From Ulota crispa (taxonomy: Eukaryota > Streptophyta > Bryopsida > Orthotrichales > Orthotrichaceae), in assembly GCA_963920765.1 (NCBI GenBank), contig OY987243.1, positions 6,634,001-6,698,000 on the forward strand: DNA of 64,000 bases. Reading direction: 5' to 3'. Positions within the stretch are counted from its first letter, which is position 1, and each line of letters starts with the position of its first letter. Positions 7,458 to 61,863 of the stretch are shown here, one piece after another. Made by a program: the position numbers and the translations under genes. The notes below the pieces were generated by a model. It saw only the letters and a program-made list of their open reading frames with translations, did not search any database and was not told where the DNA came from.

Positions 7458-8120
7458 TTAACCCCTAAATGCCCAAGCCCTATCTGGGCTTCTTGGACTT
7501 TCCGTGAAACTGAACAATCAATCAATCGTTTCATAAATTCTATCAAGTTTCTTTCAATTGTAGTCGTACAAATTTAAACTAAACATGTTAAAAATTATAT
7601 GGAAAAAGAAAACACATTAATATCACTTATAGTTTGAAAGATTATAACATTTGAACATGAGGATGTTAAAATTGCAAAAGTGACTTAAAGACTTCTAATC
7701 CTCATTTCACATGTCAAATCTAAAAAGTTAGTCACTAAAAAAAAATGAGGTTTAAGGTCATTACATGTCTAACTTTAATTAATTTACGGTTTTAAAAATC
7801 TAATCCTACATTTTCTTTAAATGGATGTCTAATGTGGATTTTTCTCCAAGCTTTAGTGTATTTGAGGCTCATTTTCAAGATCCTCCATCACTAGAAAACT
7901 CAAGATTGCAGTGGACACCCTTGTACAAAATCTTGAGTAGAAAAATCATCAACTTTCACTTTCCAAATCAGATTTTTGATTTTGAAATTAGACTTAAAAA
8001 CAAACTTATATTGAAAACAAAGTACTGAAAATAATGATTTAATAAGATTTTATTCATCTTCAAAGTTTTGTAAAGTTTTGTAAAGACCCAAATCTGGTTG
8101 CTTGGGCATTCAGGGGTTAA
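7458..8120. mobile_element. PiggyBac-like MITE (0.66-kb subfamily)
   Basis: It begins TTAACCCCTAAATGCCCAAG at 7458 and ends with the inverted copy CTTGGGCATTCAGGGGTTAA at 8120, one mismatch in 20. TTAA at both outer edges matches the invariant piggyBac target duplication. The interior carries ACACCCTTGTACAAAATCTT, shared in the same orientation with 35678-36330 and inverted in 35006-35658. It has no transposase. Confidence 0.8.
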
Positions 8121-10014
8121 ATATTAACTTCCACGCTTGTACTTGGTTTCAAAGGATTGGTCAATTTGGGGTAAAATCAAATTTACCTGTACTGAAATTT
8201 AACTTTTGGGACCCCAAGTTTTCAGGAGTGGTTTCTAGTACTGTTTTTTATCAAATTATTTGGGTTTTTTTTCTTAAAGGACAAGTAGAAAGTTACATCG
8301 AAAGTGGTTGTTCACACTCAGTCCCCCGTACCAATGAAATTTCAATTGGTTGAGAGTATAAAGTTGGGAGTTGTCAATTCACACTCCCATGATCAGGTTC
8401 ATTGGATTTTGGTTACATGACAACACTTTTTGGAAGTTTTAGTGCCAAAAAGATAGAGCTTTTCTCCAAGTCTAAATCAACCATTTTGCTTCACCAGATT
8501 CTTATCCCAAGTCTCACCAATTCTTTTGCATAAAATACTCATAACTTTCTTTAATATTCCTTACTACCTTCAATGATCCAACAAATTTGGATCTTTAGTT
8601 GAGGTGGGACTTGTGCAAATGGAATGTGGGACATAATGAAAACTACCTATATCTCACTTTGCTTCATAATTTTTGGACTCTATTTGTAATCTTGAATTTT
8701 ATAAAATTTTATAAAATAGGAACCTTGAAGGTACTCTAAAAATACCCCACTCTACAATGTCCATTTTTGGTTCATTGAAACTCTGACATATACCTTTTTA
8801 GGGTATATTTTGAGTGGAATTTTGCTTTGTTACAATCCACCTTAGAATGATGTGAGAGGTTATTTAGAAATCCCAAGGTTATATTTGTTTTATGAGATCT
8901 AATCAAAATGGTTTCCTATTTTGTGCTTGATAGGGCTTTTTAGCATTACTATTCTTTGCCTTGTAATTATTGTAGCAAAAGAACTTGTGGTATTTAACCC
9001 CTAAAGGACCAAGCCCTTTTTTGTGTGAAAACCACTAAAAACTGCCACTTTTGGGAGAGTGAGTGGAAAAGTAAGAAAAAAGTTTTTTTATAAAATCCAA
9101 CCATAGGATCTTGTCCTAGACTATGGGAGGTACTTGTGGGGAAAATCTTAGGTCATTTGAGATGGTGAGGAGTGAGGTATCAACATTTGAAGTGAAGAAA
9201 AAAAAAATTCCCTGCTGCCCAAAACCTTTAAAAGCCTTTGATCACTCTTATAACAAAAAAATTACTCTACACAAAGTTGAGGTTTATTTTATGCAAGTAG
9301 AAAACCAAGATAGATAAGTGTGGGAAAATTTTCAGATCAATTGGAGTTGTACAACATACTTCAAAAAATCTTTGAATACCGAGAGGTCAAGAAATTTGCA
9401 CATACACTAGGAAAAATTGGAAGCTTTATGTAGAATTTAAAAATCCAAATTACATTAATCAAAAAGGTGCAGTCTTTGGACTCTTAGTACATTACCATTT
9501 GCAAAAATAAAAAATAAAAAATACATATACAGCCTATTCAAAAAAATTAAACATTGGATTTTTCCAAAGGTCAGGTAAATGGAGGGTTGGGTGTACCTCC
9601 GCCCCACCCCCTCTATTTCAGATTGCATGCCTCAATTTGACCCCATGCCCCCTATGTACCAGTTGATTCCACTCACCTCACCCCACGTGCCCCCTCCCAT
9701 TCACTTGGAAGCTTAGAGCATCTCCTGTCTTGCACTTCATATGGAGCACGCCACACGGGCTTTGGAGTGCGCTTTTGTACATGGCGAGGGCCACTCCTGC
9801 CGAGAGACCCAACGTTAGCAGGAAAGTACGCTCGCTACAGACCAAGGGTGGGGCCGCAGGTTCATTACATCCAAAAATCTCATGAGCTGGATAGGGCCCT
9901 TTGCTTTACAAAATCTGTGAGTAAACATAAAGCGTGTTTAAAAAAATTAGCTATTTGTGAGGAGATGCATCTAGAATTGTTTTTTCTTCTTTCGTATTTG
10001 TTATTTCGTATTTG

Positions 10015-10406: not shown

Positions 10407-13337
10407 GTACAACATGAATGCTTGGAGAGCTTCGTTCAAGGCTTGCCATGAACTTTGTAGCAGAGGACAAAAGAGAATATGTAAATCCACAATTTGAAAG
10501 CGTATCACTTTTCTGTTAACTCCTAAGTACCTAAGGCACCAAATTTTGGTGTTAACAATGTTTTGAAGTTCAATAAACTTAACAAAGTTGCTATTTTTAG
10601 TAGTTTGTATTTTTGAACTATTCTTTTTGAAGTCTAGTTTTGGCATTAAAAAGCTAATTTTGAAAATGATTGATTATGATTTTTCTATTCAAGATTTTGT
10701 ATAAGGGTCTTAACTTTTTGTAGTGTTGAGAGCTCTTGGAAATGAACCTCAAACGCACTAAATCCTTTAGAAAAAGTCACATTAGAAATTCATTTAAAAA
10801 ATTGTAGAGTAGATTTTGAGAAGTCATAAATTGGTTGGGGTTATGCATGTTAGGCCCTTTAACCTCATATTTTTTTGGTGACCAACTTTTTAAATCTGAC
10901 ATGTGAAAAGAAGATTGAACGAATTCAAATCACTTTCACAGTTTTAACACCCTCATGATTAAACATTATAATCTTTCAATCCATAAGAGGTAATGCTGTC
11001 TTTTCTTTTCTAATGAGATCTCTAACATGTCTAGTTTGATTTCATACAGTTACAATTCAAGAAGAGTTGATACAACTTATCAAAATGTTGCCTTTTTTGT
11101 TAAAATTAGAGCAAATTCCTAGAAGCCCCAAAAATGCAATGTCACTTTGGAGTTAAATTGTTCGCAAGAAAAATGGTTCAAGATTTTTTTGTCTCTTATG
11201 ATTTGTGATACATCTATTTGTAAACATCCAAAATTTCATTCAAAACAAGCACTTCCTTTCCAAAGCACATGGCTAATGTTTGGTCATACAATAGAATTTG
11301 TAGCAACTCTACAAACTATGAGTAAGTGAATAAAATACAAAAAGGGACAACCAGCTTTCCAACAGTATGAGTAAAAACTTCTTGCAACCATTCTATATGA
11401 TCAGAATGTAGCTAGTGCACGCCACTATTGCAAGGGGAAGTGAAATGTGCAAATAATAGTATGTATACCTACTAATAATCAAATCATTGAGAAAGCACCT
11501 TGCATCAACCAAAAAAAACTAATAAGAAAGATGAACAACAAAAAAGAATAGTGGACCAAAAGGAAGGCACTCTACACTGAATATTGCATTCATGTTGCCT
11601 TACCTTGAAAAGTTACCTCATGACTCATCACCTGGCCGCTTGAAGGTGCATGAAACTCTCTATATATTTGGATTGAACATGGTGTATGACTTGGAACCAT
11701 CTAGTTTATTTTTTTGCATCATTGTTGACAAGCCGTTTAAAAACTCTTTGTTGCAATACTTTTTGATGAAGATTACTGTGGAGAAACCTAAACCCAATAT
11801 TCAATGTAGTTCTCTCCAAGAAAAGTTCACAAGAAACTACGTAGTATGGGAAATACAGGATGATTACCCAAGATAATAAGAAGCAAATATTAGACCTAGC
11901 TAGTGGTAAACAATCTTTATTTGTTCAGCCACATCATGTGTACTTTGCTTCTACGATGATCTAGAAATTAATTGTGTTTTTTGAAGAGCAACAAAATTCC
12001 ATCTACATAAACAAAACCACATCTTTATCAAAATTTTGTCACAATTTAACTGCTACAACTACTTGTTATCCTGGAAGCAAATTGATCTTTGACTTGACCA
12101 CTAGTCACGTGTTGAGATCCACACCTCCACTATCCTTTGTAACCCAACTTGCGATGCAAATCCTTGGGTTTCAAACACATAACGCATGTAAACATAAATA
12201 TAAACCACCTAGCAACTTGTGTAGGAACTTTACAGAAATTTTGTTTCATACAGCCAAATGAGATATTGCTTTATAACTCTCTAAAAACCAATCAATTCCA
12301 ATGCATCAATATACATGGAGAGGCAAGATTCACGTTTGAGTCTATCATGATTTGGTTAGCGCGAGCATCGTGCAAAACAAATCTAAGATTGTGAATACAT
12401 CAATAGTTAAATAACGGCTAGAGCATCATACATGATGCTTTCATGGAATGGCAACATGTACATTTAAAAAAAAAACCTCCAAGTACCGGCAAACAAATTT
12501 TGAAGTGAGAAAAAAGTTGAAGTATTGGAACAATAAAGCAAGTGAAATGTTAAGACCAAGCAAATTAATGCATTTCCATCCAAAGGATCAAAACATAGTC
12601 AATTTTCACACATCCAAATAGTTATTATCTATTAAAAATTTTGAAAATACTTTAGAATGAAGAATTTACTCACACTCAAATTCCCATAACAATTAAGTTA
12701 ATGAAGGTTCCCAACACTCCAAAGATGCAAATAGCTCCAAAATTGGTAAAGAATGGTTTTTGGAAGGACAAACAAGGTGAATTAGACCAATTAGAATCAC
12801 AATTTGACACCGGTTATGCTTGACATTTTGTTTCACACAACTATTCTATTTAGTCTGAAATTTTGTAGAAGAAAAATAAACCTAATGGATTAGAACAATA
12901 TTGGTTGCACGTTGAAGCCGGATACTAATATTCCAGCGTGTGTTGTAACGCCATGCCAGTTGCTATCCGCCATGTAAAATACTAGAGGATTCAAAGAACA
13001 AGCGCAGATTGTTGGAAAACATTACAATTTACAGCATCTTGAAAGCTTCTACATACTAAATAAAGAAAAATTGAAGAGATCATAAAAGATACATACCAAA
13101 ATGAAAGCATTAACATCTGGACGCAATGACCTCTAATCTCTACAAGTACTAATGCTCTTGTTTGCGGGACCAAGATTACTTGATAATGTTTTCACAAACA
13201 TCATTGCTAACCGAGCTTCATTTCTTCTTATTGATGCAAGGCTTGTATAAAACAAATTCAGATTTGTAGACCAATGTCCAAGCTGTAGTTGTTGTTGCTT
13301 CTTAAATTTCCAATGATGGACTTGGACTTCCTTATTA
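10407..13337. other. AT-rich sequence without recognisable gene
   Basis: From about 10635 to 11050 the sequence resembles, in inverted orientation, the inside of the 0.66-kb piggyBac-like MITEs (AAGCCATAAATT-type and GAGAGCTCTTGGAAATGA motifs), so it is probably a degraded copy. Between 11100 and 13330 I see only AT-rich sequence with short open frames and no domain. Confidence 0.45.
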
Positions 13338-32324: not shown

Positions 32325-32572
32325 TTAACCCCTGAGCGCTCAGCACAAGTTCACTCAAATTCAAATCCTTTGAAACCCATTTCAATTAGACTATCACTTA
32401 AAAGAGATTCACAAAAATTGATCGTACCGATTGGTAGTGAATATAGGCCTGGAGCTCTAAGGAAAAGGACATGTCCTTTCACCATACCATTGAAAAGATT
32501 ATAACGGTCAAACAAGGAAATTTTTCAAAACCAAGAGGCCGTATTTTGGCCCCTTGCGCGCTCAGGGGTTAA
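32325..32572. mobile_element. PiggyBac-like MITE (0.25-kb), first of three abutting units
   Basis: TTAACCCCTGAGCGCTCAGC starts at 32325, and GCGCGCTCAGGGGTTAA ends at 32572. The final TTAA (32569-32572) is at the same time the first TTAA of the next element. It is noncoding. Confidence 0.8.
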
Positions 32573-32827
32573 CCCCTAAGCGCCCAACCCAAAGTTTGTG
32601 CAGTGTTAGACCTTATTGCAAATAGTTTGGCACCACAAGTTCAAAAACAATATCTAGAAGAGTTAAGCCACTGATATTGCATGAGGCTTAGGGTTTGCAT
32701 ATGTATGAAAATTTTGGTAAATTTTCATTGTATGGATCAAAAGATTATAATAGTCAAAAGCAACAAACTGTTGAATATGGAAAGGCTAGATTTGGGGCAT
32801 TGGGGCGTTGGGGCACTCAAGGGTTAA
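32569..32827. mobile_element. PiggyBac-like MITE (0.25-kb), second of three abutting units
   Basis: TTAACCCCTAAGCGCCCAAC starts at 32569, and TTGGGGCACTCAAGGGTTAA ends at 32827. Both TTAA borders are shared with the neighbouring units. An internal AAAGATTATAA..GTCAAA motif is shared with the first unit, so the two are related but not recent duplicates. Confidence 0.8.
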
Positions 32828-35005: not shown

Positions 35006-35658
35006 TTACCCCCTCAAGGCCCAAGGGACCAAAATTGTCCTTCCTTGTTTGTAATTTGGGATGCTTAAATTTTCTTCATGATTAATTACAATGATCTTAA
35101 TTTTTTTAAAGTTCTTGTTGAAGTCTTGTTTTAGTATCAAAAGTCTGATTTTGAAAATGACTAATTATGATTTTTCTATTTAAGATTTTTTGCAGGGGTG
35201 TCTATTGCAAATTCTTCACTTTTTAGTGTTGAGAGCTCTTGGAAATGAGCCTAAATTGTACACTAGAACTTGGAGAATTAATCACAATAGAAACTTAGTT
35301 TAAAAAGTTGTAGGGTAGATTTTAAGAAGCCATAAATTGATTAGGGTTACACATGTACTCTACATAGTGCATACTCATATTTTTTTGGTATGCTCAATTT
35401 TAAATTTGAGATGTGAAAGGAGGATTGAAAGACTTCAAATCACTTTTTTAACACCCTCTTGATCAAATGTTATAATCTTTCAATCCATAAGAGATACTGT
35501 TATGTTTTCTTTTGCTATGTGATCTCTAACATATCTAGTTTGAATTTGTATGGTTACAATTTTTAAAAATTGATGCAACTATCAAAATGTTGACATCTTG
35601 TTCATCCAAGAATAAATTCTAGGATACTCGGGAAAGAGCATGGGCCTTGAGGGGTTAA
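35006..35658. mobile_element. PiggyBac-like MITE (0.66-kb subfamily), inverted relative to its neighbour
   Basis: The left end is TTACCCCCTCAAGGCCCAAG (one base changed from TTAACCCC) at 35006, and the right end TGGGCCTTGAGGGGTTAA closes at 35658. The interior (GAGAGCTCTTGGAAATGAGC, AAGATTTTTTGCAGGGGTGT) is the reverse complement of the unit at 35678-36330, only 19 bases away. Confidence 0.75.
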
Positions 35659-35677: not shown

Positions 35678-36330
35678 TTAACCCCTCAATGCCCCTGGAA
35701 TTTCAGAGTATATGAGAATTTGCTTGAAAGTGAACAAAATGTCGGCATTTTGATCAATCTTATCAATTTTCTTTGAAACATACCCATACAAATTCAAGGT
35801 AGACATGTTATAGATTGCATAGGAAAAGAAATCACAACCATATCTCTTATGGATTGAAAGATTATAATGTTTAATCATGAGGGTGTTAAAACTGCAAAAG
35901 TGATTTGAAGTTTTTCAATCCTCTTTTTGCATCTCAAACCTAAAATTGAGGGTACCAAATAAATTAGAGTATGTAAAGTATAACATGCATAACTCTAGTC
36001 AATTTACGGCTTCTCAAAATCTATTCTACCATTTTTTTAAATGAAATTTTAATGTGATTTTTTCTCCAAGCTCTAGTGTACTTGAGGCTCATTTTCAAGA
36101 GCCTTCAACACTAGAAAGTGAAGATTTGCAATGGACACCCTTGCACAAAATCTTGAATAGACAAATCATGTTAATTCATTTTCAAGATCAGACTTTTGAT
36201 GCTGAAACTAGACTTCAATAAGAATTTAAACATAACAATAACCACTAAAAAAATATTAAAGAAACTTGAAACGTCCCTGAATAAAACTTAGAGGGGTGCA
36301 ATTTGAGCACCTTGGGCGTTGAGGGGTTAA
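35678..36330. mobile_element. PiggyBac-like MITE (0.66-kb subfamily)
   Basis: TTAACCCCTCAATGCCC at 35678 is inverted as GGGCGTTGAGGGGTTAA ending at 36330, one mismatch in 17. The last TTAA (36327-36330) is shared with the next element. The body matches 7458-8120. Confidence 0.82.
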
Positions 36331-37248
36331 TCGCTAAAGGACCATGGCTTTTATTTTGTCAAAAGACACTCGAAACTATCATTTCTATGGCAAAGAGTAA
36401 AAAAGTTTGAAAATTGGTCTTTTTGCACATTTGACTGTAGGATCTTGTACTAGACTAATACAATAATGTGGAATAAAAATTTCAAAAACTTTGACAACAC
36501 ATATTGCAAGATATTTGCATTTCAAGTGTAAAAAATAAGCTTTTTTGCACCTTTCATGACTAGATTATTTGATTTTGAACTTTTTTAATTTGAAATTTTT
36601 GCACCGTAGAGTTTGAAACTATATTTTTTTGGGGTGGAAAGTTGAGTTGGGAATCTTGGGAAAAAACAAAACAAAAATACTTAATTTTCATTTTTTTTTA
36701 AATAATTAGGTAGAAGAAGGTATGAGATTGAACAAAAACTTAAATTGTTAATAATTCTACAATGGAATTGAAACACAATAATCTCAATGGTGAGATTGTT
36801 CTAGAAAGAAAACTTCACCTTGTAGAATAGTTTTTTGCAAGAATGTTAAATTTGCATTCAAAAATGAAGTTTATAAGTTTTTTTTTAAGAAGATGCTTCA
36901 ATTGCCCAAAAAACAAGATTGTCCATAACTTTCTCATTACTATACTAGTCCAAATGGAATGAATCAAAGCTTCAGATGTAGAAAAAACTATAATCTATGA
37001 GAAAAAAATATTTAAAAAAATTTCAAGTTTTTGTAAAAAAAATTGCTACCTGGACTCTCCAAATTTGTGTTTATTTGGGCATAACTTTTGCTCCCTAGCA
37101 TTGATTGGAATAAAAATTGCATTCCCCAAAAGCTAATGTGTTTTTCTATATTCAAAAAGTTTCAAAAAATCAAGACAAAAATTCAGGCTGTAGGTACGTG
37201 CCTGAAATCCCATTGTCCTATATAGGGACAATGGTCCTTTATGGGTAA
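36327..37248. mobile_element. PiggyBac-like MITE (0.9-kb GGACCA subfamily)
   Basis: It starts TTAATCGCTAAAGGACCATG at 36327 and ends GGGACAATGGTCCTTTATGG near 37245, with the TTAA reduced to TAA. The right-end GTAGGTACGTGCCTGAAATC is shared with 14800-14871, 54843-54905 and, inverted, with 40739. Confidence 0.75.
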
Positions 37249-39014
37249 TTTCTTGGCAAAAATTTGCCTAAATCTTACCTCAAAACTTGAGTGGCAATCA
37301 TAACACTAGAAAACTTCCCTGGGAAAAATGGATGAGTTTGCCAAATCCCTCTCCAAGATTGCACCAAATTCGCGAGCTTTTGGATGAAAGCTACTAATGT
37401 TAATAGATTTATTGGATGAATATACACACGTTGTTGATTCTATCCAACTCTATCCAAACTTTCCTTACCTGCTATCATGGTGGGGTGCGTGTTGCTTTAC
37501 TATGGAAAAACCAAAAATTAAACGATGGATCAAACATTTCAAAATATTTCTCTAATATTTATTGGTAGAAAAATGTATCTTGCATCTATTGCTTTATTTT
37601 TTTCATGAAGAATGGGTTGTTTGTCTCATGATATAATTCTTTATTGATGTTACAAATTCTATTAGAGAGGGGGAAGGGAGAGGGAAAGGCACCCAAATGA
37701 AGGGTCAAAAGTCATTGGATTTTTTTTTCTAATTTCTCTATTATAAAATTTTGGGTGTCAAGCATTGGGTGTGTGTTTGTCACTCAAAATTTGAAATCTA
37801 AGGGGGAGGGAGAAGAAAAGGCAAAGGAAAGAAGGGTGAAAAGTTATTGAAAATTGGAAAAGGGGAGGAAGGAAAAAGTAGGGAAAGGGAGGGTAACAAA
37901 TCACCTCAAAAATCATGGAAAATTAAGAGACATAGCACAAAGTGCATGCAAAGCGTATTTGCAAGTCATGATTTTGGATCATTTTGAGTTATTTATGATT
38001 AAAAAGTTTGTAGTTGTGGGTCTATTTTTGAGTTTATAGGGTGGCAAACACCATGCATTCCCTAGCACTTTGAGTTGAAAAAGATGAATCGTACAATTTC
38101 ATTTGCGCATTCATGTTTCCATTGTTTTCTTACACATTATGAAACCAAAACTCAAGTTTTAGTTTAAACAATCAAATTGCTTGTGCTCAATGCATTTAAC
38201 TAAAAGGGGGAGTAGAAAATTGGCCATTGCTCACTACAAACCCTTTTTCCGTATTTTCATATATACTGTAAGTGTATGAAAACATTACAAACCCCATTTC
38301 CATAAAACAGGTTCTAAGAGAAAACTGTTTTTGAGAAAAATTGTCACTTCGGATGAATGAGAAGTTAAACTTAATGGATGAAAGTCGCCCGAAAGCACCA
38401 AGAAGAACTTTGATCATCATCCCAGATTTTAGCTAAAACGCATTTAGAAGTTAAGTTAACTAAAGATACTAACATTATACTCATTAAGAAGCAAAAATGG
38501 ATGAAGATCAAAGCCTTGCTTTGAATTTATTTTTGGTAACGATTTTAGGCCTCAAATCATGGCAGTAGGTAAGAAATATTTTTACATATACAGCTTAGGG
38601 AAGAGTGGTAATGCTTTTAAATCCCAAAAGTGCAAGGGAGTAGGTAGAATGTAGATTCAAAACTTTTGAGGCAAAATAAATCATGACTTGAAAAATTCTT
38701 GAAGCCAAATCTTCGATAAAGTAGTTTCTTTTTTCCCTTTTCAAGTCTACATGAATTTGATTCAAATCCTTGCTCAAAAATCATGAAGCATCCAGTAATC
38801 AAACCAATCACATAGTTTAGTTGAAGAACAAACTAAACAACTTACTTTTTAAACATTATTTGGATGTAACACATATGCACGCAGCTCCTACAATACACTT
38901 GACATTATTCATTGTTCACATACTGGACGCTGGCACTTGTAGGGGTTGATAGAACTTACTATTGTGCAAATTCTTCCTAACGTGTTGACCAGGGTTTCTC
39001 AAATGTGGCTCAAT
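37249..39014. other. AT-rich intergenic sequence
   Basis: The first 260 bases resemble 33220-33440. From 37660 to 37900 there is a purine-rich stretch (GGGAGGGAGAAG-type runs). No gene, RNA or clear element ends are visible. Confidence 0.4.
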
Positions 39015-39872
39015 TTAACCCCTAATGGACCAGACCCCTTTTTTCTTTATTTATAGAAACATAGTAATATTTGGCAGGTACTTGTGATTGGAATTTTTCA
39101 TATTTTAGGCTAAAAAGTTATGGCCTAATATGTTGTTTTTTACGTTTGTCGGGCAACTTGGGTAGATTTTTAAACTTTACCTTTCTCAAAAAAAAAAAAT
39201 TAAATTGGTTTAGGAGATTTATGTGAATGTAAGAAGCTTTGAATCATTTTGTTTTGATCAACAAGATGAAAATTATGAGGATTTTTAGTTTATGGGTAGT
39301 TATGGATTCTCTACTCCAAAATAAACTTTGAAGACCTTTATTTTACTCAATTTTCAATATTTTGGAAAAACAAAACAAAACCAAAGGATGTAAATTGTTT
39401 ATTACAATATTCCGACCATTGGGATTGGCATCTTTCATTTCCATAATTAAATTCTTAACAATTTTGTGTTTTGAATCATTCTCTACTTCTTTTTACTTAC
39501 TATTTTTTTTTTCATATGTTATACAACTCCAAATGATTTGAAACTTTTTTGACATGTATTTTACTTAGGCGGAATAAGAAATTTAGAGAAGCATCACCCA
39601 CATGACCTTTTTTCCTTAGGAATTTCACCTTCCAAAAGGCAGCCGCCCAATTTTTCAAAAGAGATTTTTGAATATTCAAACCCTTCTAACTTCCAATTCA
39701 CGCGATGGAAAACTCTGAAATTTTGTCCACATCTTCTAAAACTATTCTTCTACAAGATCTTATGGTCACATATGCATAAAAATGTGTTTGTTTTCAAATT
39801 TGGTTGATGCTCTAAAAATGGCAGTTTTGAAGAGTTTTTGGTGGAAACTTTGCTTGGTCCTTTAGGGGTTAG
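39015..39872. mobile_element. PiggyBac-like MITE (0.9-kb GGACCA subfamily)
   Basis: TTAACCCCTAATGGACCAGA starts at 39015, and TTGGTCCTTTAGGGGTTAG ends at 39872. The interior AATTTTCAATATTTTGGAAA and AATTAAATTCTTAACAATTT are shared with 40739-41648 and, inverted, with 60923-61863. Confidence 0.8.
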
Positions 39873-40160
39873 CAATTCTTCTACCAATGTTTTTTATAGT
39901 TTCAAAACATATGTAGACCACTAAATGAATTTTGGATTTTAGCATACTTAGCAATGATTTTAGCAAAGTGATTTTTTACGGTTTTAATTGTTATAATGCA
40001 TGTTTTACGAGAAAAAAGACTGGTGGAACCATCCACGTGTGCATGTTTATCCTTAAAACGACTATTGTTGATAACTTTCATTCAAACTTTGACAACCCTC
40101 ATGTCTCTGTCAGAGATATTTGGCCATTCCATCGATTTATTCAGCTGTATTTTTAAGTTT

Positions 40161-40738: not shown

Positions 40739-41648
40739 TTAACCCCTAAAGGACCATTGTCCCTTCATGGGACATGTTGGACTTCAGGCATGTACCTATG
40801 GCTAAAGTACTTTGTGTGATTTTTTGAAACTTTTATTGAAGGTGGGGAATTCAAAGATCTATGAAGACATTTAATTTTTTTTTCAATCCAACATTTGATG
40901 AAGAAGTTATGCATGAATTTATGAAAATTTGGGGAGGACTGCCCGTCCGGGCAGCCCAAAAACTTCTTTAAAAATCATATTTTTTGAAATACAAATTTGA
41001 AATTGGTTCTTTTTATTTTTTAGTATGTGAGAAGCTTTGAATCATTCAATTTCAATCAGTGAAATGAAAGTTATGAGGGGTTTCTGTTTGCGGGCAGTTA
41101 TGGAATCTCTACTCTAAAATAAACTTTGAAGTCCTTATTTTACTCAATTTTCAATATATTGGAAAAAAATTAAACATAAGGAAGTTGATTGTTTGTCACA
41201 ACATGATCACCATTGGGATTAGCACTTTTCATTTCCATAATTAAATTCTTAACAATTTAGTCTTTTGATTCATTCTATACTTCTATTTACTTTTGTTTTT
41301 TCCCATGTGTTGTATAGTTACAATTGATTTGAAAATTCTCTCCCAAATACCTAACTTGATCTACTACATGGAAAAATTTAATTGCAACTTTGGGAAAAGC
41401 AATTTTTTTGTTATAAGAGTGGTCAAAGGCTTTTGAAATTTATAGGCAACATGGAAAAAAACTTTTTTTATACTTTAGATGTAAATATCTCACTCCTCTT
41501 CATTTGGAATTTTTCCCAAAGTCTAGAATAAGATCCTACTGTTGAATTTCCCAAAAACAAAATATAAAATCTTTTTTTCAAAAACTCCTAGTAATGACAG
41601 TCTTTAGTGATTTTAGCAGAAAAAAGAGCTTGGTCCTTTAGGGGTTAG
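40739..41648. mobile_element. PiggyBac-like MITE (0.9-kb GGACCA subfamily)
   Basis: TTAACCCCTAAAGGACCATT starts at 40739, and CTTGGTCCTTTAGGGGTTAG ends at 41648. The ends match for 17 bases apart from the last base of the TTAA. It lies 17 bases beyond the MITE ending at 40721. Internal sequence is shared with 39015-39872 and 60923-61863. Confidence 0.83.
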
Positions 41649-42833: not shown

Positions 42834-43668
42834 TTAATCCCCAAAGGACCAAGGGTGTTTTTTGAGAAAAAATCTCAAATTGACCCATTTGAATATGTGG
42901 ATTGTAATATTATAAAGATTGAAGTGAGAAAAACAAATTCTATTCATTCCTGCAAAACAAGGTCACTAGGCTTTGAGCCCTCCTAGAATAAAAAAATTCT
43001 CTACACAAATATGAGTTTTTTGACCATTCATAAGTATATGATGTTAGGTTCACTAAAAAAATCAAAGGCAAATATACAATCTAGCTTATTTTAAATCATC
43101 CTGCAATGTAAGGAGGTTAAGTGAATTGGCAATACCCTAGTCATTCTTTCATGATTTCTTGTGCAACAAGGAAGCCTTTTATTTGAAATCTAAACAGTAA
43201 AAAATTAGAGACAAGCATTTGAAATATGTGTAAGAGATTCAAGAACTTTGAATATGTAAATTGCTAGACAATAGGACTTAAAGTCATAAGAAAATATTTT
43301 TTCTTGAAACCGCATGGACATAGTTAAAATAGTTTTACTCTTCTTAGAATGTGATTTAAGAGCTCACATTTAATTAAAATTTTGACAATTGTATACCATA
43401 TTTTATTAGCTACATACATGCAAATTTTCAAAGTTGATAAGAGCTTTAACATAAGATTTTCCAAAGATGCCCAAATTCTTTTAGGCACCATAACTTTTGA
43501 ATTGGACATCTGATGGAGGAAAAAATTACATTTTCACTTGAGGAATACATATTTACACCTTGTATAACAATTTTGAGAACATACAATAAAAAATGACTTT
43601 GTATGACCCTACCCAAATTCTCAAATATTTGTATTTGTTGAATGGACACTTGGTCCTTTAGGGGTTAA
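42834..43668. mobile_element. PiggyBac-like MITE (GGACCA subfamily)
   Basis: TTAATCCCCAAAGGACCAAG starts at 42834, and CTTGGTCCTTTAGGGGTTAA ends at 43668. It begins three bases after the previous unit ends, so the two elements are practically tandem. Confidence 0.78.
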
Positions 43669-43963: not shown

Positions 43964-44288
43964 TTAAGGACCGTGGTTGATTTGGGGGGTGGGCAATCCT
44001 TTATATGACTATTTGGGGGAAATTTTCAAACTTTTGAATATAGCTCACTCTTTAGCCGTTATGGCCATTTTTTTGTATTTATTGGTGTATTTTTAACCAA
44101 TACTCTTTTAGATTTTTCAACCCTCTAGCCATATGCCACCTCAAATTGGCCTGATTATTGTTCTACACTCTTCACTTTCCAATTTCTCAAACCCGTCCCC
44201 TTTGCCACGTTATCAAATTCCTTAACATGCTCTTGCTACAAACTGAAAAGAGTCAAAATTGACCACAAATAGGTTAACCAGTCCTTAA
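43964..44288. mobile_element. Possible small TTAA-flanked element
   Basis: TTAAGGACCGTGGTTGA at 43964 and TTAACCAGTCCTTAA ending at 44288 are imperfectly inverted, and both edges are TTAA. The right TTAA is the start of the next unit. The termini lack the CCCC of the main family. Confidence 0.4.
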
Positions 44289-45199
44289 CCCTTTAAAGAC
44301 CACACACATTTTCCCAAAATCCACTAGAAACTTAGGCAATAAGATTAGATGTGCATTTGAATCAAATATGGACCCAATTTGAATAATCCAACCGTACAAA
44401 TGTGAAGGACACCTTGTTTGTTGCAATACATCAAAATTTCAGCTAGATCTACCGTTGGAGGTGAAATATTATAATGATTGAGTGAGCCGTATATGGAAAA
44501 TCTCCAGTTTTTCATGCTTGTGTGGTTTTGAATGGTAGCGCTTCATGCAAGCGTTGATTGAGAAGAGCCTTACATTTCTAGAAAGCAGGGTTTCCCACCT
44601 TTCCAACAAGACTAGTTTCACTCAAAATAGACAAAAATAGCAATCACAAGGTGTAGCTAAGTGGACAACAAGGGTCAAAAATCCCATTTTCTTTGCTACC
44701 CTAAAATGGTTCTACAAGAAACTTGAAAATTGTTACAAAAAATCTGATCAGTGAAAGCAATCAAGAATTGGCCTTAAATGTAGGATGACTTTTTTTAAAA
44801 ATAAATTGATAGCATCATTTCAATGGATTCTCAAATAGTATAGTTGTACTACTATCGTATAGAGAAACAATACAAGCATATTTCTTGAGTAATTTGAAGT
44901 TTTTTAAGATTGCACAATTGAAATGTGACATTCTTCTTGGATATTTGATGTATTGTGTTGTTGCTTTGATCCATCTTTGACCAAATATGGATACGTATTT
45001 TGAGGCCACAATGTATAAACACCATTATTTATCAACTCCCATATCCGATTCTATTGTCGTTTTTTGGGTTGGATGCAAAATTCTAGTGATCACAAGCGTT
45101 TTTCAAGATCAGTTTCCAAATTGTTGAGCGATTTTACTGTATAGGCCAAAAACTACTCTCCTGAACCAAAATAAGGTTCGGTGGTCTCTAAAGGGTTAA
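44285..45199. mobile_element. PiggyBac-like MITE with diverged CCCTTTAAAGACCAC ends
   Basis: TTAACCCTTTAAAGACCACA starts at 44285, and GTGGTCTCTAAAGGGTTAA ends at 45199, with one mismatch over 18 bases. TTAA is perfect at both edges. The body is unrelated to the other subfamilies by eye. Confidence 0.75.
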
Positions 45200-46957: not shown

Positions 46958-48047
46958 TTAACCCTTAAATGCCCAAGGCACCATAATTGTGAATTGTGGT
47001 GTCCAAAAACTTTGGGCAACTTTGAAACCCTTTTGAAGACACATATTTAATTATTTTGAGGTCTTTTTTCGGAGAAGTTGCAAGCTAAACGTAGCTTCAG
47101 CATTCAATTTTAATTTTCTCCATATCTTATTCTATTTGTTTTTGGTGAAAGGTAATAACAAGCGTACCTTTTGTGTCATGAATAGTGTTGTGAATAGTTA
47201 CATGAATAATGCCATGAAAAGTGTCACAAAGCCTATGACAAGTTGCCACTTTGAAAAGACAAGTATCAAGTTGAGAAAAAAGTGAAGATTTATCTTGAGC
47301 ACTCCCTTAGGCAATAAGGGCCCTTTTACTATAATTTCTCATCTAACAAAATCTAAAAGTGTTTTTGGATTAGAATCACTTGGAATTTCTTTGTTATGAA
47401 AATCAGAATTCATTCACCATTGAAGTTTTTTTCATTCATAAGGATTTTTGGTCAATAATTGAAGCTAAATATTTTATTTGTATTAGGCGGTTGCACTTTG
47501 ACAATTGCGTTGCAACCTCATTTGTGAAACTGTAGTCATGGATTTAAAGGGGGACCATCATTTTTTAAATAACAACAATAAACACTAAAGCATCCAAAGT
47601 GGTTGTTTCCCAATTTGTATTCAAAAGTTGCCAATTTACATTAGAAGTTTTGGGCGGCTCCAAAAAAAGCAAAAAAATCTATACTCATCCACATTCAATC
47701 ACCAACCTGTGTGACCAAATTGGGCTTTTTTGGTAGCGCCATCTAGAAGCCTTGAAGTTCAAGATTAGACTGTTCTAATTTTGTTTTGATGTTTAATAAT
47801 GATCTTATAAGGGTGATTCAAAAAATTTAAAACTACCTTTCAAAAATAAGAAAAACATTGTTGGCCCACTACAAGGGAGTATTGTCAAGTTGGACATTGT
47901 ATGTCAATCAAATCACCCTGATTCAAACACTTTTTTGTCAATTTAGATATGTTTTTTGTCAATTTTTTTTTCAATTTGGACATTTTAGTCAATTTGGACA
48001 TGTCAATGCAGATAGTTTTTCTTGTAGTGTGGGCACTTGGGAATTAA
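46958..48047. mobile_element. Possible piggyBac-like element, 1.1 kb
   Basis: TTAACCCTTAAATGCCCAAG starts at 46958, and GGGCACTTGGGAATTAA ends at 48047. The match between ends is weaker than in other units, so the pairing is tentative. No coding region is recognised. Confidence 0.5.
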
Positions 48048-48207: not shown

Positions 48208-48700
48208 TTAACCCCTAAAGGCTCAAGCCTTTTTTTTCTATAAAAGTTATTGAAAACCTCCACTTTGGAAGAATGAAGAAAAAAGTAAGAAAAAGAGTTT
48301 TTTTTAAAATCCAACCACAGTATCTTGTCCTAGACTACGGAAGATACTTGTCCAAAAAATAGCTCTTTTCTGATAAAGAGGAGTGAAATATTGACATCTG
48401 AAATAAAGAAAATAAATAAATTCTTCCCTACTTGAACATTTCAAAAGCCTTTGACCACTCTTAAAGCAACCAAATTGCTCTACACAAGTTGGGATTTAAT
48501 TTTTCATGTAGAAGACCAAGTTAGATATGTGCGGGAGAGTTTTCAAATGAATTGGAGATGTACAACATACTACAAAAAATCATTGAATGCAGGAAGATCA
48601 TGAAATTTGCAAGTACACTAGGCAAAATTGGGGAAATTTAGTAGAATTTAGAAATCAAATTACAATGATTTATAGGGTGAGAAACAAGGACTCCAAAGAT
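48208..48700. mobile_element. Left part of a piggyBac-like element (right end not found)
   Basis: TTAACCCCTAAAGGCTCAAG starts at 48208. The next 450 bases match the left ends at 8994, 50771 and 60923 (ATCCAACCACAGTATCTTGT, CTCTACACAAGTTG, ACACTAGGCAAA). No matching right end follows nearby, so it is truncated, or its partner lies farther off. Confidence 0.55.
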
Positions 48701-48814
48701 ACTACAACTTGAAAAAAAAACTAAAACTAAAACTAAATGCTCACATTGCTATAAACATTAAAACTAAAAAATTGACAAAGAGGCAAAGTTTTGGATGGTT
48801 TCAAAGGTCCACAT

Positions 48815-48922: not shown

Positions 48923-49099
48923 CACTATTTGGTTAGTCAGGTCCCAAACTCCCGATTCCTAATTGTGTTGCACGCTCCCTTGTTCCCCTCCCGCATTCGT
49001 AGTATATTCCCCAACCATTCCTGCATGAGCTCTCGGTGCACTTCCATGACATTTACTCTGCTATTCTCAGCTAGAGCCAACCTAGTATAAAAACCTAAC

Positions 49100-50770: not shown

Positions 50771-53700
50771 TTAACCCCTAAAGGATTGCAATTTTTTTTT
50801 TGCAATTTTCAGTGAAAACTACCACTTTTTGGGGAATGGGTAGATTAGGATTTTTTTTTTTTTTTTTTTTAATTTTTTTATAAAGAATATCCAACCATAG
50901 GATCTTGGCCTAGACTATGGGAGGTACTTCTTTGGAAAAAATTAGCTCAATTTAAAGGTTGAGGAGTGAGATATTTACACTCAAAGTGAAGAAATTTTCT
51001 TTTTTCTTTAATACCCAAAATTTTCAAAAGCCTTTGACCAATGATATGTAAAAAAAATTACTCTACACAAAGTTGAAGATTTTTTTTTTATCATGTAGGT
51101 AATCAAGTTAGGTATGTGTGGGAGAAGTTTCAAATGAATTGGATATGTGGATCATACTTTATAAAACCTTGGAATGCCGGAAGGTCTAGAATTTTTCAAA
51201 TACACTAGACAAATTTGAAGGCTTTGCCAAAAATTCAAAAAAAAATCCAACACAATTGAAGCGGTGAAAATTTAGGCTGGTTATTTCAAAAAAAAAAAAA
51301 CACACATGGAGGCTAATCAAAATGTGTAAAATAAAAAAGTTCGCATAGGGCAGATGCAATTGAGGGTTTCGGGTCTCATGAAATGGGGCCATTGTTCCCC
51401 CTATTATACCCTCCATACATGTAAATACTTTGAAGTCCCGCCTTGCTGGCAGAGGGACCTGCAGCTCTCACATATAAATTTTCATTAGATAGTAGTTGTT
51501 GCATTCTTTCGCTGGACCCTTTTCTCCCGAATGCTCTATCCGACCGCACCCGTTGCCGCTGCTGATCCGATCTTCAGGGCCGTTTCCCTATGCCGCAGCC
51601 GGGCACAACACTCCCTGACAGCGGTGAGGTGGTGATCTCAATGCTGATGTGGCTGTCCCTGCTACTCTAGCTCTGCTTTGTCGTTGTAAACGTTGCAACC
51701 TGCTCAGGACTTTCGTCGAAGGTCCTTTGTATCAGATGTATGCTTCTAAACTTCTAAGATCAGTTACAGCAATTTTTTCTTCTGGTAGTTCTGTCTTTAG
51801 TCCCAATACTTACTGCTGGTGCTATGGTCACTGTTACTGCTGATGCTCCAGAAGCTCTAATATTCTAGAGACTCTACTACCTCAAACTCTCTGTTGCTCC
51901 AAGAGCTGTGCGGATTTTGAATCACAAGTCATACAACCAATAGAAAGCATAAATATGAATATTAGGTAAATTTGTATTATGTATATAGTACGCTATTTTT
52001 TTCTCTATAAAAGATTATAATTCATAACTAGCATAACTTTCTGATTCACTATATATTTTTCAATTATTGCCATATAATAATTAAAAATATAAGGTTATAA
52101 GAGAATAATGAAAACTCAAAATAAAATTTGTTGTCTTATATAATGTTTGCATGATATTTTTGGAAACATTTCCTACGTCAACATATGAATTTATTTCCAT
52201 AAGATGGACAATATGTTATGAGGCAAATGATAGGGTGTGAACTATCATTACAAACGACACACGAAGTTTTTGGTTAGTAGTAGTTGTCTGATAACAAACA
52301 TTCTTATTTGACATCGCATAAAATACGAGTGTTATAAAATCCCAATTATGTATAAGAGTTTCACACAATTAGATCTTAAATTGTAAATGTGTCATAGGTC
52401 GATGTGGAGGCACTTGAGTTTTACACTTATCAAAATATATGACATACATGTTCAAGACAATCGTGTCGATAAAGAAAAAAAAAAACTCGATGCTACCATT
52501 TATATGATTGAGTCTAGCATGAATAGGACTTTCGGAACTGGTCGGCAACATCAACGCCGCGCATGAGCGTTGTGTATACAAGTGGATTAGAGATGTGATA
52601 ATATTCTCCCGGATTGCATCATTGCGTCGTACAACCGTCGCTATGAGAAATTCATCAGGAAATTCAATTAAAATACTATGAGTAGAGATGATACGCACCG
52701 ATATCTTGTTTTTTCAGATAATGGCATTGATAGTTTCTAACAGATGCATACGCCACTCCAAAGATCTTTGCGCCGATTTTGCAAATTCATTTGTGTTTTA
52801 TAATATTGAAAGAATGCCAATTTTATTGGCTCAAATTCTGCCTGTATCACAAATATTCTTCTCTAGCAATTCTTGGAATAAATATATGCTAGTGAAAAAG
52901 TTATTTACAGCAATAATATGTCCAAATCTCTTATATGAAGCCAATAATCTCAAAACCATATTATGAGCTAATCATGGTTGTCCTCGAAGTGTTAGTGCTT
53001 ATTATGCTAAAACTTGATCTTTCCCATAATAGATTTCAAAATTTGCCACAAATCCTGAAATCGAGTCTGCAAGGTACCTAACTTTGATTTCCCACTTTTG
53101 AGGCTTTTATGGCATATATTACATAGCCAAGCAATATAATCATTTATAGTATATCATTATTTCGTTAATTGCACCAAATTTTTTAATATTCCATGGTGAG
53201 AGACAACTCTCTTTAATGAAATCAATAAACTAACGTGGCTGTCCTATCTTATCATAATTAGGTGGAGCTCTATTAAGCACGTACTTCGCCGGATTTGTGG
53301 CATGTAGACATTTTATAAACAATATAAACCTAACCCTAGACATGAGGCTAGAAATAATGAGGCAAAGAAATAGAGATCCATGCTTCTGCCAATATGATTT
53401 CCTATTGGATTGTTTTTTAGCCTCATGTACGTAATAATGGCTATATACACTTGAAGTTCTTTTACATAACAAGGTGTCCACAAACAGTTCCTTGAGACCG
53501 GCCATTAGCATCCAAACAAGTAGCGTATCTATTAATCTCTGTTACAATATCTCTAAGAACATTGTGTGGCAAAAAATATCAAATAACTCTATGAAGGTTG
53601 GAAAAAAGAACCATAAGTCCTAAAAAGAAGATTCAACTTCAAAATGAATGGACAATGGGTCATACGTCACAAACTCATGAGTCCAATTTTCATCACGATA

Positions 53701-54905
53701 TGTGAATCTGAAGTTCTCATGCTCTTCTGTGACTTCATCAGTGCAAGTATCATCTTCATCATTTGACTATAAATCCTTAATATAAGGGTTGCTTCCATTA
53801 TTGTTACCTTCCAATAGTAGTGATTAGATAATCTTTTGAGAATTAGAGGAGCCATAATATTCCATATCTAAATTCCCTTGCACTCCCAATGACCTCCTCT
53901 TCCGTCTTAACACACATGCATGACAATGCAGATATATATTCCAAAATTTAGTGTTTATAATGTATTACATTGCAAAAAAAGAGTAATCTAAGAAAAAACG
54001 TGCTACATTTTTCAAATAATTATGCAAATCTTTGTGGACTTGTTTATATTGAAATTTAATATTTTGGTGTAATGAATTTCACACTTCCATCAATGCATAT
54101 TTCCCAAATGTCTTCATTGCATTCATTGATGACATTGTTGCAATTACCTTCACCACATCTTCCTAATAATTCAATAACCATGACGGGGGACATTATTCCA
54201 ACTATCTCTAGCACATCTTTCTAATAATTCAATTACCATGATATGTATGCATTTACATGTAATTAAATTATCCATTAGCAGGTTACTTTCTAATTCCTAA
54301 AGAAGTACTAATCATAATAGTATTGTACAAAAAATTATCTTGTACTTATAGTATCACAATATCATACGATTTACTCTCCATCAGCATAAAGCACTCAAGA
54401 ATAAAAAATACAAAAAATTTGAAAAAACACCCTTGAACATGAATGCTCCATGATATACTCATGTATATTTATTAGTTTTGAAGAGCAAGTACAACCATAG
54501 AAGTTTAATTTTTTTTGGCAAAACAAGAGAGTAGAATTGGTAATTATCATGTGAGAATATAAATATCAATTTACCAAAACTTGTTTAAATGTATAATAAA
54601 AAAAGTGCAAATCGCATATTATAAACATAAAACTTCATCTTTTCCCAAGAAAAATCTATACTACCATTATAGCAAGGGGATTGATATGTGTACCACACCT
54701 TTTTAGACCCTAAACCACATTCTGGGATAAATTTTAGATTTCTACCATCAAATAGTTGAATTTGAGAATTCGGAATTCAAATTTGGACTTAGAGACCTTG
54801 GTTTTCAATAAAAGATTTGGAAAATCATGCAAAGTAGTTTGGCCATAGGTATATGCTTGAAATCCCATTTGTCCCCCGAAAGAACAATGGTTCTTTAGGG
54901 GTTAA
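50771..54905. mobile_element. Candidate full-length (dead) piggyBac-like transposon enclosing the transposase relic
   Basis: TTAACCCCTAAAGGATTGCA starts at 50771, followed by about 400 bases shared with the left ends at 8994, 48208 and 60923. The right end, GAACAATGGTTCTTTAGGGGTTAA, closes at 54905, preceded by ATGCTTGAAATCCCATTTGT as in other right ends. Between them, on the minus strand, lies a decayed piggyBac transposase (52670-53865). At 4.1 kb the unit has the size expected of an autonomous element. A GC-richer block at 51500-51900 and a foldback fragment at 54675-54817 interrupt it, so later insertions are likely. That both ends belong to one original insertion is inference. Confidence 0.6.
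52369..53865 (-). pseudogene. PiggyBac-family transposase relic (DDE_Tnp_1_7 type)
   Basis: Reading from ATG at 53865 on the minus strand gives recognisable piggyBac-derived blocks in order. They are WTHEFVTYDPLSI and FPTFIELFDIF; VLRDIVTEINRYAT with LDANG after a frameshift; KSYWQKHGSLF and CLHATNPAKYV; NYDKIGQPR then FIDFIKE; SPWNIKKFGAINEIMIYYK; KPQKWEIKVRYLADSISGFV; HNMVLRLLASYKRFGHIIAV then NNFFTS; and KNKISV with ISTHS. Similarity fades near 52670, though the frame stays open to 52369. More than ten in-frame stops and at least two frameshifts show it is dead. The Asp expected in the (I/V)DE block is Asn (AAC, 53166-53164), and the Asp expected before NFFTS is Asn (AAT, 52905-52903); both fit G-to-A change. 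The C-terminal third catalytic block and cysteine-rich domain are not seen. Confidence 0.82.
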
Positions 54906-58680: not shown

Positions 58681-60922
58681 CTCCTACAACACTCCAATCT
58701 TAGGAACAAGAATGTAGATGACGGAACAACACACTTAGATTGACTAACTGACAGATAGTGGTACTGCGCCTAGAGATGTTGTAGGAAAAACACTAGATCT
58801 ATTGTTAGCCTAGACAGGCAGCAAATGCAAATAAGAATTGAGGTAAGTAGTTAGCTTTGCCTGCAATCTTGTGAAATCTCATAGCTCTAGTAGATGCATA
58901 AACACTTGTCTGACGAAGCAACAAAATCTAAAAATTTAATGGATTAGGCTTTGGGAAAGCCTCCTGGCACGAACACACTAAAATGTGAGTGCTCCAAAAC
59001 GCACCTTGGGATAAATGCAAAATACAAACGGGTTCTAGGTGTAAAAAAAAGAAAAGGGGAAAAAATGCATTATAGTAAATCCAATCTAAAATGCCTTCCA
59101 AACAATGAATATCTTTTTAAAATTTTGATTTTTTATGTGTTTGTTTTTAAACTTAACTAGATAGAAGGGAGAAGTAAAAAGCACTCAAGTGGATATTTTG
59201 CAAGTAGAGTTTAGTTTGTCAAAGTGGGAAAAAACTAAAGAAAAAGGGGAGGGTTGGTTCACCATACCTTATTCGTGTGAGTTGTGGAGTCCTCGTTGGG
59301 GTCAAGCGCTCTCCAACGCTAATACTTTAGGTCAGATCGTCCAACAAGTCCATTGTGCTTTACTCTACCTTTTACCACTCTCTCCTCCTAAATCCTCTCT
59401 TGTCTTGTCTCCTCTCTTTGTAACCTTTGTTAGTAGATCCTTCAATTGCTAATATTTTGTTGTGTTGTGATTTATTTCTAAAACTCAATAGTTAATAAAA
59501 CATGACACCTTTGCCTTTTCCAATGGCAAGAGAACAAAAACACCCACTACCCTCTAGCTTCCCTAGTCAATAAAGTATGACGACATAGAAGGATGTTTAT
59601 GAGGGCAAAACAAAAGGAAAAGAAAGCCAACGATCCTATTTTGCATAAGAGTAATATTACTTTCTCCTTTTTTCCTACATATCATCACTTTTTCTTCTCT
59701 CATTCATTTGTGTTGTTGTGTTTGTGTTGTGCTTTCTAAACTTAGTTTTATTTTCCTCTTTCCTTTGCTTTGAGCTTAAATGAGTAGAATTGTTTTGGGA
59801 GAGAAGAAGGAAGAACCGAATATTATAGCTCCTCCTTTAAGTTTGCTACTCTCATTTGTGGATTATGAGGTAATCACCAAAATTTTAAGCAGTGATTAGT
59901 CCGGCACTTTCTCTTCTCCTTTTTATGGCCAAACCCTAGCTTGCATTCAGGTCTGGCTTTCTTCTCAGCCCCTGCCTCTGCTGAGCTTTCACTGACTAGA
60001 GCCTTCGAGCTCTAACCCAGCAGCTTCAGCACTAGAACTACAGTCCCACAGCCCGTCAGCAGCTGGATTCGGCACCCTTATACGTTGTCTTCGGCAGCTG
60101 CGCTTGTTCTTGCAGCGCCGCGTGACGCGGCCGGGGCTCCGCTCATCTCTTAGTCCTCCGAGTCTGTTGCTGCCCCTCGTTTTGCTCTTCGTCTTGGCTC
60201 CTCGTTGTTGGGACCTCAATGCTGGCCCCTTGGGGTTTCGGTACAGCAGCTCTACTGCTGCCCTCTTTTCTGGTCCAGGGCTTCACCCTTTCTCAAGACT
60301 CGAACTTAAACCATTTCTTCTCTCTAATTTGAAAACTTGACTTATGAGCTAAGTCTTAGAAAATGTTCAAAGAAATAATGGAAAGAAAAGATTTGGAGTC
60401 CTGAGGTCCCGAAAGAAAAGATTTGGAGTCCTGAGGTCCCGACAGAGAGAAAGTCAAACATGAAGAAACTTTAACTCACTAAGACTGGCCATGTCAAATT
60501 AGACCTGTCCTAACTGACAAAACAAAGAAAGAAATAAAAACTAAAACTGGAGATTGTCAGGGCAACTTAGCTATGTCTTAAACCAATTTTAGGGATATGA
60601 AAGTAAAGAAAAGACTCCACATGGACTTTAGGAGATCTTGGCCAGCGGTATTGCCAGTCAGAGCTAAGATTCCCTTAGGATTAGTATGACTAAAAAAAAG
60701 ACAAAAGAAACAAAGAAGAATGCTAGTGCCAAATTGGCTCTAGACAGGTTAGTATGGAAACGACAAAGGAGAATAGAGAAATGATGAGGATGTCAAGGCC
60801 TAACTGGCCCTAGACAAGTTATTACAAAGCCAAAAAAAAGGAACACAAGAGAAAATAATGCACTTTTAATGCCCTAAAGGCCTGAAAGGACCCACAGGTT
60901 CTTCAATGCCTATTTCTATAAC
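58681..60922. other. Mixed intergenic sequence with a GC-rich island and a 30-bp duplication
   Basis: No gene is recognised. 59950-60260 is GC-rich, with open frames on both strands but no domain. At 60381-60440 a 30-base unit starting GAAAGAAAAGATTTGGAGTC is duplicated perfectly in tandem. Confidence 0.4.
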
Positions 60923-61863
60923 TTAACCCCTAAATGCCCAAGTAGTTTTCTCCAGTGAAAGTCATTGTTAACTACCACTTTGGGGGGCATGAGTAGAAAA
61001 GTAGGAAATAAAGTTTGTTTTGCAAATCCAACCATAGGATCTTGCCTTAGACTAGAAGAGGTACTTGTGGGAAAATATCAGGTCATTCTAGATGGAGAGG
61101 AGGGAGATATTTATATCTAAAGTGAAAAGAAAGGTTTCTTTTTATGTGTCCAAAAAAAATCAGAAGCCTTTGTCCACACTTACAATGAAAAAAATTACTC
61201 TACACAAAGTTGAGGTTTATTTTTTCCATGTAGCAGACCAAGTTAAGTATGTGTGGGAGAATTTTCAAATCAATCGGAACTATACAACACATGGGGGAAA
61301 ATAGTAAGTAAAAAGAAGTAGAAAATGAGTCAAATCACTAAATTGTTAAGAATTAATTATTAAAATGAAAAAATGAAAATCCCAATGGTTATAATGTTGT
61401 GATAAACAATCTACTTCCTTAGGTTTAGTTTTTTTTTCCAAAATATTGAAAATTGTGGAAAATAAAGGACTTCAAAGTTTATTTTAGAGGAGAGAATCCA
61501 TAATTGCCCACAAACTAAAACATCTCATAACTTTCATCTCATCGATTGAAGTTGAATGATTCAAAGCTTTCCACATATAAAAAAATCTAAAGAACCAATT
61601 TCAGATTTCTATTTTTAGAACATACAAATTTTGAAGAAGTTTTTGGGCTGCCTAGATTGCCCTCCCTCCCCCAAGCAGTAGAACTTCTTGCATATCTTGT
61701 TTGTCAAATGTCAAAATGACAAAAAAATTAGATTCCCGAGTAGGTATTGGAATTCCCCACCTTCAATAAAAGTTTAAAAAATCTCAAAAACTAGATTAGC
61801 TATAGGTACATGTCCAAAATCTCAACTGTACCCCTGGGAGACAACTAGGCCTTTAGGAGTTAA
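60923..61863. mobile_element. PiggyBac-like MITE (0.9-kb subfamily)
   Basis: TTAACCCCTAAATGCCCAAG starts at 60923. The right end, CTAGGCCTTTAGGAGTTAA, closes at 61863. Left-end sequence (ATCCAACCATAGGATCTTG, CTCTACACAAAGTTGAGG) is shared with 8994, 48208 and 50771, and right-end sequence (TTGTCAAATGTCAAAATG, ATAGGTACATG) with 14690-14871. The middle matches 39015-39872 and 40739-41648 in inverted orientation. It therefore links the small elements to the long unit at 50771-54905. Confidence 0.78.

Follow-up and report, generated by a model that had tools for sequence, protein, structure and literature searches.

The piggyBac transposon is one of the most used vehicles for gene delivery. The family is familiar from insects and vertebrates, with a range in nature commonly given as animals together with scattered protists, fungi and algae, and is scarcely documented for land plants. 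The terminal inverted repeats (TIRs) of piggyBac elements begin with CCY. A survey of 207 plants, four of them bryophytes, names five primary superfamilies of miniature inverted-repeat transposable elements (MITEs), piggyBac not being among them, and its main text contains neither 'TTAA' nor 'piggyBac' (PMC12550479). In further sources, PiggyBac is placed among seven angiosperm MITE superfamilies by a review (PMC10004981), the C-fern repeat table has 1,230 PiggyBac entries amounting to 122 kb (PMC6890710) and a grass genome has one such entry (PMC8319324). Niphotrichum japonicum (PMC10619864) was rejected as a piggyBac report because what it contains is 'piggybacking'. An expansion of piggyBac MITEs in a bryophyte was reported nowhere among the matches listed, which covered titles and abstract openings of the open-licence literature, repeat databases lying outside the search. 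The subject of the present analysis is a 64-kb stretch of DNA (contig OY987243.1, positions 6,634,001 to 6,698,000; hereafter the window), examined together with the rest of its genome. The repeated units that it contains are almost certainly piggyBac-superfamily DNA transposons of a moss, most of them non-autonomous MITEs. The units are bounded by TTAA (some borders have decayed), start with CCCC or CCCT and carry an inverted copy of this start at their other end. Insertion duplicated exactly TTAA in the two cases examined, and some of the MITEs are internal deletions of 4-6 kb elements encoding a piggyBac transposase.

The moss elements agree with the piggyBac superfamily as represented by T. 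ni piggyBac (PDB 6x67) and piggyBat (PDB 9c0f) in the PF13843 domain, the aligned catalytic aspartates, the TTAA duplication and the CCC ends. They differ from these two in their land-plant host, in the length of 4-6 kb of the transposase-bearing elements and in transposases that group separately from the eight named animal sequences included. Like the animal piggyBac-derived MITEs of coral and bat, described in papers cited in PMC9942856, the short units are non-autonomous piggyBac derivatives, but they are set apart, by description rather than by sequence alignment, through their moss host and the very high number of ends. With the five primary plant MITE classes presented in PMC12550479 they share shortness, high copy number, inverted ends and a scattered distribution in a plant genome; unlike those classes, they have a TTAA duplication and a piggyBac transposase. 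An earlier note, made from the sequence of the window, had stated that piggyBac has no recognised share in land-plant genomes. This needs amending, as piggyBac labels for plants have been published, if in low numbers. Elements of this kind are known; the host and the scale are unexpected, and it is the scale in a land plant that looks new.

Exact TTAACCCCTAAA ends occur 11 times in the window, for which the random model gives a mean of 0.05. When TTAA followed by CCCCTAAA was counted, 11 exact ends were obtained, 21 at up to one mismatch, 33 at up to two and 59 at up to three, and the corresponding means of 20 second-order Markov simulations of the window were 0.05, 0.25, 3.7 and 23, the excess being weaker at three mismatches. 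Across the whole genome (274.8 Mb scanned, 157 contigs) the 12-mer TTAACCCCTAAA was found 15,477 + 15,495 = 30,972 times, and its reversed-letter control 41 + 36 = 77 times. The density of exact ends in the window (172 per Mb) is only somewhat above the genome mean of about 113 per Mb, which marks the phenomenon as genome-wide and not local. If each insertion contributes two ends, the 30,972 exact ends would correspond to some 15,000 insertions of this end type, a rough estimate and not a repeat annotation, which single surviving ends would raise. Other end variants add to this number, among them 983 ends of the type seen in family C (see below). The plant telomere unit is TTTAGGG, and one such unit equals CCCTAAA, which raises the question of whether the CCCTAAA ends could be interstitial telomere repeats and not transposon ends. 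This is scarcely credible, as a double telomere unit has one match in the window (1830-1843, with one mismatch), which lies at no unit, and as the CCCTAAA ends are single, with TTAA before them, family-specific sequence after them and no runs among the listed window ends.

Facing end pairs with similar inverted sequence gave 19 pairings in the window and none in 30 simulated windows; the 19 include several cross-pairings of neighbours, which were not counted as units. Ten both-ended units can be recognised, with CCCCTAAA and CCCTTTA as end types, and eight of the ten have TTAA on both sides together with an inverted match of at least 11/16. Along with about a dozen single ends, this is in line with the figure of about 18 units in the earlier note. 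The inverted ends of about 17-24 bases described there are in fact shorter: the matching stretch of real facing pairs spans 9-19 bases, and within the first 16 bases of the two ends 10-15 agree in the ten units tested. Six of the seven example units listed at that time do have TTAA at both ends; the seventh, 40739-41648, has a right border decayed to TTAG. Two of the examples (32569-32827 and 40739-41648) miss the thresholds of the facing-pair search, in which position 44285 was paired with 45207 and not with 45199. The most telling unit, the degenerate element at 50771-54905, was absent from these examples.

Three units were used as family queries: 7458-8120 for family A, 60923-61863 for family B and 44285-45199 for family C. 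Two nested insertions provided natural empty sites in the form of paralogous copies within one genome, namely a family C copy inserted in family C (L063) and a family A copy inserted in family A (L064). In both cases the insert is bordered by TTAA at either end, and rejoining its flanks through one TTAA gives a gap-free alignment with the uninterrupted window copy. At L064 the uninterrupted family A copy carries TTAA itself. At L063 the uninterrupted window copy of family C reads TTGA at the site and the host copy of the insertion has TTAA; TTGA was present at this site in 10 of 14 fetched family C copies, the window's included, the other four being unmatched by the pattern used. The insertions show the 4-bp TTAA target-site duplication of piggyBac and none other. 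At the junctions of 22 full-length copies, two of them from the window, TTAA was found at 21 of 22 left ends (one TTGA) and at all 22 right ends. The copies had been selected for the best full-length agreement with queries whose own ends are TTAA, which partly predetermines the junction count; more weight is carried by the flanks, among which (44 flanks of 200 bp) no similarity past the TTAA was detected. Homology beyond the TTAA and a duplication other than TTAA were the two observations that the earlier note had named as speaking against it, and neither was made in this material. Exact CCCCTAAATGCCCAAG ends occur 3,244 times genome-wide with TTAA directly before 2,742 of them (84.5%), and the remaining 502 may represent decayed borders. 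At one further site (L065, C3:20890800-20892950), two oppositely oriented family C copies abut at a single TTAA that belongs to both.

A TTAA duplication is also made by the Kolobok and Sola3 superfamilies, and alone it does not single out piggyBac. The units could accordingly derive from one of these two superfamilies, with the piggyBac transposases of the genome as unrelated bystanders, an account in keeping with the many transposase loci that have no CCCCTAAA ends nearby. It is nevertheless very improbable, since the transposase search, which covered the piggyBac family, placed a piggyBac transposase inside elements with both CCCCTAAA ends, at 50771-54905 in the window and at the locus L034 elsewhere in the genome, and since MITEs share both ends with those elements. 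The MITE 60923-61863 corresponds to the two ends of the 50771-54905 element (bases 1-373 at 69%, bases 4034-4135 at 71%) but not to its middle, and the inverse of 40739-41648 resembles the first 371 bp of that element at 65% and its last 102 bp at 81%, again without the middle. Both MITEs are internal-deletion derivatives of an element like 50771-54905. At L034 the transposase (3608-4786) is located between TTAACCCCTAAATGCCTAA ends at 1267 and 7012. L035, which has TTGA at its right border, is a homologue of L034 (70% over 3.95 kb), and the transposase-bearing elements at the two loci measure 5.5-5.7 kb. The MITE 46958-47880 matches the L035 element at 1-274 (64-81%) and 4868-5441 (73%) and, when inverted, the L034 element at 23-585 (79%) and 5542-5746 (64%). 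The short units are MITEs by their length, inverted ends and high copy number; they are putatively non-coding, and three of them have ends in common with a transposase element. The membership in piggyBac that had been proposed from the ends is supported by the transposase homology and by the MITEs sharing both ends with transposase-bearing elements. By analogy with piggyBac elsewhere, a transposase of this family, provided in trans, would have recognised the common ends, excised the elements and reinserted them at TTAA sites, and the short forms would thereby have multiplied.

Several observations weigh against this explanation. When the 1.5-kb flanks of 30 transposase loci were searched for CCCCTAAA ends at up to one mismatch, none of the 30 had any. 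Ten loci were then considered over extended regions (L031-L040, of which L031 to L036 correspond to L030, L026, L017, L004, L014 and L018, respectively): a matched pair was found at L034, one clear and one decayed end at L035, one end each at L031, L032, L033 and L036, and none belonging to the transposase at L037-L040, so that at six of the ten a CCCCTAAA end lies farther out than the original flanks. With most loci lacking ends, it is L034, L035 and the window element that carry the two-ended link. The ends common to MITEs and transposase elements are only 64-81% identical. Families A and C are not tied at both ends to any transposase element; the similarity of family A to L034 is limited to 62 bp at one end and that to L035 to 21-36 bp, and family C matches no transposase element beyond a separate copy in L038. 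Moreover, the empty sites come from paralogous copies of one genome and not from another strain. The link between MITEs and transposase is solid for families like 60923-61863, 40739-41648 and 46958-47880 and putative for families A and C, whose ends are of the same kind.

The piggyBac transposase family PF13843 has 120 matches in the genome (best E 1.3e-73), obtained from 116 scored of 528 candidates, and no match in 14 control genomes. Stop codons interrupt 110 of the 120. A stop-free stretch of 388 residues at L011 matches PF13843 (4e-67) as well as the PDB entries of piggyBat (9c0f, 3e-24) and piggyBac (6x67, 8e-20). Its 19 matches in the protein database consist of eight named animal sequences (25-31%) and 11 entries without organism name (up to 51%), with no named plant among them. 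Aspartate is present at all three aligned catalytic positions in 20 of 30 copies, the columns having been taken from the L011 motifs that align with the aspartates of piggyBat; in T. ni piggyBac the triad is D268/D346/D447. PiggyBac transposases have a C-terminal cysteine-rich domain, and a cysteine-rich C-terminus is visible by eye in L031. The remnant in the window element (52435-53575) was compared by tblastn with the L030 piggyBac transposase, to which its best stretch has 47% identity over 329 aa (E 2e-86), and with PGBD4-like proteins of oyster (8e-15) and fish (4e-17). All 14 candidates that this stretch yielded in the genome match it, at 64-72% apart from itself, and two of them coincide with PF13843 matches. 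Stop-free transposase frames of 476 aa and 472 aa are found at L038 and L040, and at L039 the transposase matches in two stretches, perhaps split by an intron. None of these three loci has CCCCTAAA ends of its own nearby, and L038 is, by eye, without one catalytic aspartate; the host may have adopted them as genes, or they may be copies whose ends are of another type.

A tree was built from 30 transposases of this genome and the 19 database relatives; it has no true outgroup, other eukaryotes are thinly sampled and the entries without organism name may come from any organism. All 30 genome copies and seven entries without organism name form one group (100/99 support), which divides into several deep branches; a separate group unites the eight named animal sequences with the other four entries. 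The six loci with CCCCTAAA ends lie in one of the deep branches, which comprises ten rows. Animals are the best-known source of piggyBac, and transposases of an animal or another organism contaminating the assembly might be suspected. This is extremely improbable, as the matches are located on the large contigs C1-C11 (up to 41 Mb), a transposase remnant lies in the window together with a plant auxin-receptor gene, and the eight named animal sequences are apart from the 30 genome copies in the tree. The product of this host gene (927-4081) carries F-box_5 and Transp_inhibit domains. Its best database match has 72% identity, the nearest named one is from Ceratodon purpureus (68% over 98%), and Physcomitrium patens (59% over 66%), Sphagnum (44% over 96%) and vascular plants (about 35% or less) follow. 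Its nearness to moss sequences makes a moss the very likely host, which upholds the plant-lineage origin stated in the earlier note and narrows it.

First-look candidates in the genome numbered 3,553 for family A, 8,514 for family B and 2,413 for family C, in contrast to 14 for the window transposase stretch and 528 for PF13843 as a whole. Among 40 candidates scored per family, each set including the query copy, all 40 of family A matched over nearly the full length at 88-100%, all 40 of family B at 88-100%, most of them at full length, and all 40 of family C over nearly the full length at 92-100%. The listed MITE copies are spread over contigs C1-C10. The 14 best family C copies differ from their consensus by 2.8-5.5% and eight family A copies by 3.5-5.4%; as the sampled copies are those closest to the window's, the families as a whole are probably older. 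Related units within the window are mostly 65-82% alike. Because of this, and because the copies lie about 3-5% from consensus, the pattern looks like several older family-wise waves rather than one fresh burst. The observation of the earlier note is confirmed and its interpretation supported, 'burst' being better taken as such waves. The tree would fit a long-resident lineage. A broader proposition, on which our judgement is evenly balanced, is that mosses carry their own deep-branching, long-resident piggyBac lineage with several sub-lineages, and that its spread left a land-plant genome full of TTAA-bounded MITEs, well over ten thousand in number, in the role that Stowaway and Tourist have in flowering plants. 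The approximately 31,000 exact ends and more than 100 transposase matches in a moss extend the range of piggyBac to a land plant at large scale. Such a genome would give a plant system for questions of piggyBac silencing and MITE origin, and it suggests that some moss genomes may go unclassified in sizeable part where plant repeats are annotated without TTAA or piggyBac. The units of the window and the host gene are collected in the table.

Table. Transposon units and host gene in the window (positions are those of the window; lengths as reported)
Feature	Position	Strand	Length	Details
Degenerate full-length piggyBac element	50771..54905		4,135 bp including TTAAs	Left TTAA-CCCCTAAAGGA..., right TTAA-CCCCTAAAGAACC...; contains transposase remnant
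Broken piggyBac transposase remnant in 50771-54905 element	52435..53575	-		tblastn
MITE, family A	7458..8120		663 bp	Ends CCCCTAAATGCCCAAGC; TIR 15/16
Left end of family B unit, far end not found	8994..9490			Exact TTAACCCCTAAAGGACCAAG end; 78% to 48198-48664; 74% to end of L031
Older family A relative, decayed ends TTAACTCC on both sides	10516..11156			72% to 7458-8120 inverted over 640 bp; TTAA both ends; TIR 10/16
Short MITE	32325..32572		248 bp	TIR 13/16, TTAA both sides; right TTAA is left TTAA of 32569-32827
Short MITE	32569..32827		259 bp	Adjoins 32325-32572, one TTAA in common; TIR 11/16, TTAA both sides
Family A relative, inverse orientation	35006..35658			Right end clear at 35658, left decayed; 72% to inverse of 7457-8007
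Family A relative	35678..36330		653 bp	75% to 7458-7998 over 548 bp; TIR 12-13 matches
Family B relative	36327..37250			Abuts 35678-36330, TTAA in common; left end TTAATCGCTAAAGGACCA, right decayed; 66% to inverse of 40742-41284
Family B MITE	39015..39875			Left end recognised; right border decayed, reads TAACCCCTAAAGGACCAAGC
Family B MITE	40739..41648		910 bp	TIR 14/16; left TTAA, right decayed to TTAG
MITE	42834..43668		835 bp	Ends like CCCCAAAGGACCAAG; TIR 14/16; 77% copy in L040
MITE, family C	44285..45199		915 bp	Ends CCCTTTARAGACCAC; TIR 14/16
MITE	46958..47880			Right border decayed; joins both ends of L034/L035-type transposase-bearing elements
Left end of family B unit, far end not found	48208..48790			Exact end; 78% to 8985-9454
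Family B MITE, internal-deletion derivative	60923..61863		941 bp	
Host gene, TIR1/AFB-like auxin-receptor F-box protein	927..4081	+		PF18511 + PF18791

Other repeats were observed next to these units. A palindromic repeat family of about 420 bp, with ends like GGGAATTGATATGTGYACACC, is located beside or inside several piggyBac loci (17120-17444, 24595-25004, 49089-49280 and 54676-54804 in the window; L004, L014, L026 and L031-L033 elsewhere). It was considered as the second end of the transposases and rejected, as the alignment identified a separate repeat family. An inverted repeat at 24099-25437 has arms of 412 bp that are 98% matched, with 515 bp between them, and is perhaps a fold-back or other recent element; sequence close to the L018 transposase is matched by parts of its arms. 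Scanning the window against Rfam gave no match. The window also encodes part of a starch synthase, and the region of this gene contains the second copy (28051-28480) of a 430-bp sequence that is 98% identical, on the same strand, to 19239-19667; the pair is a recent duplication. Finally, an 81-bp repeat is present in three tandem copies at 62668-62924.

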